Source of the DNA: Alphaproteobacteria bacterium
GTDB taxonomy: Bacteria > Pseudomonadota > Alphaproteobacteria > Rs-D84
DNA: 64,000 nucleotides
Direction: 5' to 3'
NCBI GenBank assembly: GCA_017503725.1
Contig: JAFVSL010000008.1
Coordinates: 124,001-188,000, forward strand
The position numbers and the translations under genes were made by a program. Below are positions 1,012-3,726 of this stretch, piece by piece. Numbering within the stretch: position 1 is the first letter of the stretch; the number at the start of each line of letters is the position of its first letter. Under the pieces are notes generated by a model that was not told the DNA's origin, searched no databases, and saw only the letters and a program-made list of their open reading frames with translations.

Positions 1012-2034
1012 ATGAAAGATTTATTTGAAAAATTGCTGATTTTGCGAACGCCAGGTATTGGGCCCGCGCGATATAATGATTTGATTGCGCGATTCGGTTC
1101 TGTGGAACAGGCGGCGGCCAGTTTAATGATGGATGCGTCACATATTGATATGGTGCGGCGTGAAATGGATAATGCCGCAAATCTGGGGATAGAATATATA
1201 TGTGATGATGATGTGAGATATCCAGTGGGATTAAAGGCCATTAAAAACCATCCGCCGGTAATATCGGTGCGTGGCAATGTGGATGCATTGACACGTCCGG
1301 TTGTGTCGATGGTTGGAACGCGGCACGCAACGGCGGCGGGGATGGAATTTATGGCGAATATGTCAATGGCGTTTGCGTCGCGTGGTTTTGTGGTGGCGTC
1401 TGGGATGGCAATGGGCTGTGATACGGCGGCGCATCTTGGCGCGTTGCGTGCATCGGCGGATGCGGTGACGATTGCGGTTCTGGCGGGTGGGGTCGATTAT
1501 ATTTGGCCACTTGAAAACGAATCGCTTTATTACCAAATCTTGGAACGCGGATGTGTGATAAGCGAAATGCCGGTTGGTTTTAAGCCAACGGCCCCAAACT
1601 TTGTTCAGCGCAATCGAATCGTTGCGGGGATGTGTGATACCCTGATTCTGGGCGAAGCGGATATGAAATCTGGCTCTATGACGACGGCGCGATTCGCAAT
1701 TGAATATGGACGGCCGGTATATGCAATTCCGTCACATCCGTCAGATCCGCGGGGGGCGGGGCCTAATTCCTTGATTCGTGCGGGTGTGGCAACACTTTGT
1801 ATGGGGGTGGGGGATTTTTTTGAAAAAGGTAGTGACGCGTCCAAAAAACAAAAAAATGAGAAAAAATTCGATTCGGAAAATAGTCTTATTGATGCGTTGG
1901 GAACAATTCCGGTGTCAGAATCTGTATTGGCAGAGGTTGTCAAAAAATCTGTTTCGGAAATCAAAAGCGAGTTGGTTGTTTTAGAATTGCAAGGAATCGT
2001 GCGAAAAGTTGATGGCGGTTATGTTCGTGCTTAA
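1012..2034 (+). CDS. dprA: DNA processing protein DprA
   Basis: DprA/Smf binds incoming single-stranded DNA and loads RecA during natural transformation. The 340 residues show the usual order: an N-terminal helix-hairpin-helix-like part (GIGPARY, 15-21), the extended Rossmann fold with VGTRHATAAG (101-110), SGMAMGCDTAAH (130-141), LAGGVDYIWP (157-166), the QRNRIVAG DNA-binding motif (199-206) and the GSMTTARFA segment (221-229), and a C-terminal winged helix (about 285-340). The start ATG lies only 6 bases behind a TATGAT box (1000-1005) and has no ribosome binding site, so the mRNA may be leaderless. Competence use is inference: DprA is widespread, and only an orphan pseudopilin (11851) here even hints at uptake machinery. 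Confidence 0.95.
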   Translation: MKDLFEKLLILRTPGIGPARYNDLIARFGSVEQAAASLMMDASHIDMVRREMDNAANLGIEYICDDDVRYPVGLKAIKNHPPVISVRGNVDALTRPVVSMVGTRHATAAGMEFMANMSMAFASRGFVVASGMAMGCDTAAHLGALRASADAVTIAVLAGGVDYIWPLENESLYYQILERGCVISEMPVGFKPTAPNFVQRNRIVAGMCDTLILGEADMKSGSMTTARFAIEYGRPVYAIPSHPSDPRGAGPNSLIRAGVATLCMGVGDFFEKGSDASKKQKNEKKFDSENSLIDALGTIPVSESVLAEVVKKSVSEIKSELVVLELQGIVRKVDGGYVRA

Positions 2035-2439
2035 TAAAAAAATTGTATAGACAGTGTATATACAAAGTGCAGAAAACGGGCAAAAAAACGAATCGTTGTC
2101 AAAAAAATAAATGTTAAAAAAACGTTTTAAAGTGGTTGTAAATTGAAATTAATCTTATAAATTATTTGACGTATCCAAAACGATAGAAATATCACAAAAG
2201 GGTGCGAAACTTTTTCTGAATAATATAAAGAAAAGTTTGGTGCCAAAATATAAAAACGGTACCCGGTTTTTGAAAGGAAGAACCCGGTACAGAAGCGAGA
2301 AGAGTGTAGAAGTTAAGGCAAGTATAAACACTAAATTTTTTCTTTTGTTGGGAAAGATTTAGCGTTTATGTGCGGGTGTCTTTTGCAATCAAAACGCGGG
2401 ATACGGGTGCAACAAAACGGGAAGGAAAGGAGAATAAGA
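2035..2439. other. AT-rich 405-bp region between dprA and dnaA
   Basis: No gene is supported. The first half is very AT-rich. Two ACCCGGT words (2261-2267 and 2282-2288) sit 21 bp apart, two helical turns, inside flanks that are nearly reverse complements of each other; this is a candidate protein-binding site in the dnaA control region. A weak TTGACG box lies near 2167. I searched for TTATCCACA-type DnaA boxes and found none, so I cannot call an origin here. Confidence 0.4.
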
Positions 2440-3726
2440 ATGCAGGCAATGGCGACAAATCAAATGGTAAACGTTGATGTTATCAAGGGGGCTGTTGCCG
2501 AAAAAATTGATGCCGCGGGTTTTACTTCTTGGATTGCGCCGATTGCGTTTGATATTGAAAATGGTGTGTTAAATTGCGGCGTACAGAATCAGTTCTCTTT
2601 TAATTACATCAATGCGGCATATGGAAATGTTTTGCGTAATGTGGCGGAAAACTTTGGTCTGGCGTTAAACGTTTATGTAGCGGGTGCAAAACGTAGCGCT
2701 TCTGTGGCGCCGGTTGCAAATGACAATAATACGCAATCTTTTGCGCCAAGCATTGCGCCAGAGGCAAACAACACCGTTGCATTCGATTCTTTTGTTGCGA
2801 CAGATGACAATGTTTTTGTTCTGTCGGCGTGCAAAAAGATTGCATCGGGTGCGGCATCTTTTTCACCACTGTATATTCACGGGTGCGCTGGTTGCGGAAA
2901 ATCTTTGTTGGCGGGTTGTGTTAAAAATGCATCTGCGGGTCGCGTTATTATGATGAATGGTGGTCAGTTTGTGTCCGACTTTACACGCAGCCTGCATGAT
3001 CGTACCGTTTTTGCATTCAAAGATTATTGCCGTAATTGTGATACTTTTATTCTGGATGATGTACAAAGTTTGGCCGGAAAAAAGGCAACAATGGATGAAT
3101 TCTTGCAGTTGGTTATGGATTTAAAAGCCGCGGGCAAGAATGTTGTTTTAACTGCAAATGCGGCGCCAAATAATTTGACCGGATTCGACAGACGTGCACA
3201 GTCTTTGTTGGCGTCTGGCTTGGTTGCGGATGTTGCGGCACCAAATGCGCACGTTAAATCTGTTTTATTGCGTCGTGCGGGGGTTGCGGCCGATGTTGCA
3301 AACGAATTGGCGAATCGCATTGCAAATGATGGACACTTGGTTGCGGGTGTGGCGACAAAAATCAAAACTTATTCTGAATTGATGGGCACAAGTGTTGATA
3401 TGGATGTTGCATCCCGTTTGTTAGCAGACACATTACAGCGCGCAAAAACACCATTGGCAATGGTTAAAAATATGTGTGAAAAGTTGGGCGTTTCATATGA
3501 TGCGGTGTGTGGCACCGGGCGCAGTCGTAATTTGGTCCTGGCGCGTCAGACAATGATGGCGGTGTTAAAGGGCGCAACAGGTCTGTCTTTGGCGGAAATT
3601 GGAAATTATGTTGGTGGACGTGATCACGCGACGGTTTTGTATGCGGTACGTCAGATTGAAAAACAAAAGGCGAATGATTTATTGTTGGCCGCCCAGATTC
3701 AACAATTGATTAACGAATGTAAATAA
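2440..3726 (+). CDS. dnaA: Chromosomal replication initiator DnaA, divergent
   Basis: DnaA is the AAA+ initiator that binds and opens oriC. The 428-residue protein has domain I (about 9-80), a short low-complexity linker (80-115), an AAA+ core with Walker A GCAGCGKS (148-155) and Walker B FILDD (203-207), and domain IV with the diagnostic GGRDHATV (392-399). The core is unusual. The arginine finger of E. coli DnaA (SRFGWGL) aligns with SLLASGL, putting Leu256 at that place, and the sensor-2 segment VRELEGALNR aligns with GHLVAGVATK, putting His299 there. ATP sensing may therefore differ. The start follows a strong AAGGAGAA site; an in-frame ATG 24 codons upstream lacks one. Domain IV argues against a DnaA-related Hda protein. 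Confidence 0.9.
   Translation: MQAMATNQMVNVDVIKGAVAEKIDAAGFTSWIAPIAFDIENGVLNCGVQNQFSFNYINAAYGNVLRNVAENFGLALNVYVAGAKRSASVAPVANDNNTQSFAPSIAPEANNTVAFDSFVATDDNVFVLSACKKIASGAASFSPLYIHGCAGCGKSLLAGCVKNASAGRVIMMNGGQFVSDFTRSLHDRTVFAFKDYCRNCDTFILDDVQSLAGKKATMDEFLQLVMDLKAAGKNVVLTANAAPNNLTGFDRRAQSLLASGLVADVAAPNAHVKSVLLRRAGVAADVANELANRIANDGHLVAGVATKIKTYSELMGTSVDMDVASRLLADTLQRAKTPLAMVKNMCEKLGVSYDAVCGTGRSRNLVLARQTMMAVLKGATGLSLAEIGNYVGGRDHATVLYAVRQIEKQKANDLLLAAQIQQLINECK

Follow-up and report, generated by a model that had tools for sequence, protein, structure and literature searches.

Analysis of the window, a stretch of 64,000 nucleotides of alphaproteobacterial DNA, showed that its dnaA gene (positions 2440 to 3726, plus strand) encodes a protein of 428 aa in which both ATP-sensing arginines are replaced, the arginine finger by Leu256 and the sensor-2 arginine by His299, together with a change of the R342 equivalent to Lys307. 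ATP sensing by DnaA is regarded as central to the timing of replication in bacteria; the finger arginine reads the ATP of the neighbour, while the sensor-2 arginine reads the protein's own gamma-phosphate and supports hydrolysis. Because both arginines are lost and HdaA was not found in the genomes searched, the family of this bacterium (f1) probably times replication in some other way than by the ATP switch and HdaA. The genome carrying the gene was 1.0 Mb and 98.8% complete, and its named relatives were MAGs of alphaproteobacteria, several of which came from ruminant guts. Its size, class and habitat agree with the order Rs-D84, probably the genus Candidatus Enterousia (PMC12306168). Literature searches found no papers on the DnaA of the order Rs-D84.

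Judged by its sequence, the encoded protein is a DnaA, though a divergent one. The Pfam domains DnaA_N, Bac_DnaA and Bac_DnaA_C (domains I, III and IV) were present in order, and TIGR00362 was the best match, covering the full length with 248.9 bits, a score below the equivalog cut-off of 343.9. The Walker A motif GxxGxGK[ST] (K154), the Walker B residues D206 and D207, and GGRDHATV were intact, as the initial annotation had stated and the alignment confirmed, and the domain IV residues that contact the DnaA box (R399, R407, H434, and T436) were kept. Assignment of the protein to Hda/HdaA was rejected, since it has domain IV and scored 46.7 bits with TIGR03420 against a cut-off of 194.8. The initial annotation had also left room for a second dnaA; none was found in the genome, where the sole other PF00308 match was rejected as an extra DnaA and identified as RuvB. 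Comparison of the window gene with its three nearest relatives gave dN/dS values of 0.065-0.096. Because dN/dS was below 0.1 and Walker A and B, the assembly residues and the DNA-binding domain were all kept, dnaA is not decaying and the protein is under selection. A dprA-like gene was located directly upstream of dnaA (window positions 1012-2034); such a gene also precedes dnaA in further genera of the family (L137-L140).

Residues were mapped by phmmer alignments to solved DnaAs and by MAFFT alignments with E. coli K-12 DnaA, and the two agreed on both substitutions, which the initial annotation had read by eye. The codon of Leu256 (3205 to 3207, plus strand) occupies the position of E. coli Arg285 (arginine finger, box VII), the codon of His299 (3334 to 3336, plus strand) that of Arg334 (sensor 2), and the codon of Arg252 (3193 to 3195, plus strand) that of box VII Arg281, which is retained. 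The family sample comprised 42 DnaAs from four genera. The finger position was Leu or Val in 42/42, the sensor-2 position was His in 42/42, and the R342 equivalent was Lys in 42/42, while the Arg281 equivalent was Arg in 37/42 and His in 5/42. Within the genus both arginines were replaced in 38/38 DnaAs, and across the family in 42/42; the substitutions are therefore not the result of chance or sequencing error. The Walker A Lys was present in 42/42 and the Walker B Asp-Asp in all but one of the 42. The R227 and K243 equivalents were retained in the family DnaAs and, by eye, the L290 equivalent was retained too. In L140 (G080, genus g20), a family member, the second Walker B Asp was Gly. For comparison across the class, 50 other alphaproteobacterial DnaAs were used, 20 of them chosen on purpose as the lowest-scoring ones; R334 was Arg in 50/50 and R285 was Arg in 48/50. 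In a set of 144 sampled alphaproteobacterial genomes, the two family members included had the lowest PF00308 scores of the true DnaAs.

The invariance of His299 and Lys307, the strong purifying selection, and the intact Walker motifs and other assembly residues make neutral erosion in a reduced genome, with no mechanistic meaning, very improbable, even though the genomes are only about 0.9 Mb and many further AAA+ positions have changed as well. The same invariance of His299 (42/42) is tighter than drift would leave and, with the retention of Walker A and B, is what would be expected if the switch had been rewired, with His299 as sensor 2 and a family-specific basic pair, R251/R252 (GFDRR), one helical turn earlier, as the finger, and with ATP still being read. 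Nearly all family members had one or both Arg of the pair, and the His or this neighbouring pair might replace the lost contacts. This rewiring is nevertheless doubtful: R252 is the ordinary box VII Arg281, found in 47/50 other alphaproteobacteria beside a normal finger, HdaA was found in no family genome searched, and the structure model is too weak for placing side chains. The model, generated with AlphaFold2 from 8 alignment rows (mean pLDDT 56, pTM 0.38), was likewise too poor for a fold search; its secondary structure alone, with a helix from residue 298, agreed with the sensor-2 helix.

Hda/HdaA is the RIDA partner that normally switches DnaA off, acting through sensor 2. When 59 genomes from the order were searched with TIGR03420, the 41 family genomes yielded no HdaA, and the only matches in them were DnaA itself, a AAA protein of roughly 430 residues, and RuvB. 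A second search with a home-made profile (A1) over 114 genomes of the order, about 96 of them from f1, found no HdaA in these approximately 96 family genomes save for one borderline match in G108. The match in this congener genome (G108:C2:343428-343604) lay in a 188-aa frame and scored 17.6 bits (E 9.9e-4). Profile searches found HdaA in the sister families f4 (genus g4; with the Hda_lid domain) and f6. Outside the order, HdaA was present in 21/23 sampled alphaproteobacteria, and it is near-universal in the class. The failure to find HdaA in any family genome searched supports the suggestion of the initial annotation that the control of initiation may have changed.

All genomes with HdaA whose DnaA was read retained the sensor-2 Arg, 7/7 in the order and 19/19 of those sampled outside it. 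The sensor-2 Arg was replaced by His in f1, by Lys in G040, by Gly in G047, and by Ala in G052, and HdaA was detected in none of these. It is likely that there were at least three losses in the order, because G047 and G052 share genus g9 with the Arg-keeping G049 and f2 is a separate family; all appear in lineages without detected HdaA, an absence that in the sister genera is drawn from MAGs, some of them incomplete. Both arginines were kept without detected HdaA in G048, G049, and the incomplete G044, and therefore loss of HdaA does not force a change of the arginines. A rough one-sided Fisher test gave 0.019 for either arginine in the order, where the lineages are few and not independent. 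The finger alone was lost in G038. The DnaA of this genome (L059, family f5) had Phe at the finger, EH instead of DD in Walker B, and NCNRTSV replacing GGRDHTTV, and it is apparently the most degenerate DnaA in the order.

According to the literature, intrinsic ATPase and RIDA require R334, and R285 is needed for ATP-dependent oligomerisation and ATPase and not for RIDA (PMC5742627), and Caulobacter DnaA R357A (sensor 2) over-initiates and cannot substitute for the wild type (PMC3193534). In two distant alphaproteobacteria, G178 (Leu) and G187 (His), the finger was lost with sensor 2 and HdaA kept, which matches the dispensability of R285 for RIDA (PMC5742627). That the sensor-2 Arg was lost repeatedly, and only where no HdaA was found, is evolutionary support for the role of sensor 2 in RIDA seen in E. 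coli and Caulobacter. The family f14 alphaproteobacteria G142 and G256 showed an HdaA-like protein of ~230 aa and no convincing DnaA by PF00308.

The 405 bp upstream of dnaA were strongly conserved and contained a paired palindrome, a ACGAATCGTTGTCA element, a promoter-like pair, and a leader hairpin. The paired palindrome TGTATAGACA-G-TGTATATACA (2044 to 2064; consensus TGTMTAKACA-N-TGTMTAKACA) occurred at one location in each of 52/59 congener genomes, and the control gave 0 hits; it was located upstream of dnaA in 37/37 genomes checked, and in G016 it was present as three overlapping units. A lone TGTATATACA was also seen at G000:C8:5245, between two ORFs. The conserved element AAACGAATCGTTGTCAAAAAA (2086 to 2106) includes GAATC (a GANTC site), and its core ACGAATCGTTGTCA (2088-2101) was present exactly once in the window genome. 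The promoter-like GGTTGT-N16-TATAAA (2134 to 2161, plus strand) was, by eye, conserved in congeners. In the leader hairpin (2323 to 2370, plus strand) the arms TATAAACACTAAATTTTTTC / GGAAAGATTTAGCGTTTATG were constant across congeners and the loop was variable (e.g. CATAAACACTAAATTT / AAATTTAGCGTTTATG); a search of Rfam gave no convincing match for the leader. A conserved palindrome with one site per genome, placed at dnaA, looks like a dedicated operator and suggests control of the amount of DnaA. The paired palindrome is thus a candidate dnaA operator, which could also serve some other regulation.

The absence of TTATNCACA boxes from these 405 bp, noted in the initial annotation, was real, but its use there as a sign of a changed system did not hold up. 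In the single-contig congener G067, dnaA was located at 443.5 kb with sampled GC skew negative on both sides, and the cumulative skew minimum of the stretch read was at ~642 kb, at rsmG-parA-parB. With dnaA about 200 kb from the skew minimum, DnaA boxes are not expected beside it, and a different conserved element, the candidate operator, is found upstream. On the same GC skew, the dnaA upstream region was rejected as oriC. A dnaA gene distant from oriC is ordinary in alphaproteobacteria, and alphaproteobacterial origins often have degenerate boxes. No origin-like cluster of TTATNCACA was found in the window or in sampled parts of the congener G003, nor was a cluster found at the G067 skew minimum. 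A box cluster was seen at 699.6 kb in G067, away from the skew minimum, and a DnaA-box pair at C5:28161-28187 was rejected as an oriC candidate because it lies inside a coding frame. The exact oriC was sought and was not pinned down.

The missing clusters in G067 and G003 would fit a DnaA that is no longer the initiator and survives as a DNA-binding regulator, with initiation independent of DnaA. A search with a 7-row DnaA profile found no DnaA in G035 (f2, 97% complete) or G036 (f3, 84%), so that loss of DnaA in these sister families is possible, and the case of G035 points in the same direction. For the window family this explanation is unlikely, since every domain is conserved and dN/dS stays below 0.1, and degenerate boxes are common at alphaproteobacterial origins, while oriC was not located precisely here.

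The explanation that we favour, at somewhat better than an even chance, is that DnaA retains nucleotide binding but has lost the ability to read what is bound, and that initiation is set by the amount of DnaA. The parts for binding nucleotide (Walker A and B), for binding DNA, and for head-to-tail packing (the R227, K243, R281, and L290 equivalents) are kept. With the finger and sensor 2 gone, the ATP/ADP switch would be dismantled, with loss of nucleotide sensing and hydrolysis; with HdaA apparently absent, hydrolysis through RIDA could not take place and would not be required. The amount of DnaA would then determine initiation, via the proposed dedicated operator, which is conserved, and the structured leader at dnaA. 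More tentatively, and at somewhat less than an even chance, this would be a natural lineage that lost the finger and sensor 2 together with, apparently, its RIDA partner, and that times replication by DnaA amount through the operator and leader RNA. A family in which both arginines and HdaA are apparently gone while DnaA is strongly selected makes the need for the ATP switch directly testable.

Compared with known systems, the family DnaA resembles bacterial DnaA of E. coli, Caulobacter, and B. subtilis in its four-domain layout, Walker A and B, GRDHxTV helix-turn-helix signature, and single copy, and in the presence of the R227/K243/R281/L290 equivalents, and differs from it in that both gamma-phosphate arginines (R285 and R334) are replaced family-wide. 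Loss of the sensor-2 arginine is shared with the laboratory mutants R334A (E. coli) and R357A (Caulobacter), which are RIDA-insensitive and over-initiating (PMC3193534); unlike in these mutants, the loss in the family is natural, fixed, and joined with loss of the finger, and HdaA was not found. The DnaAs of G178 and G187 are similar to those of the family in the replacement of the finger (Leu and His, respectively), and differ in retaining sensor 2 and HdaA.
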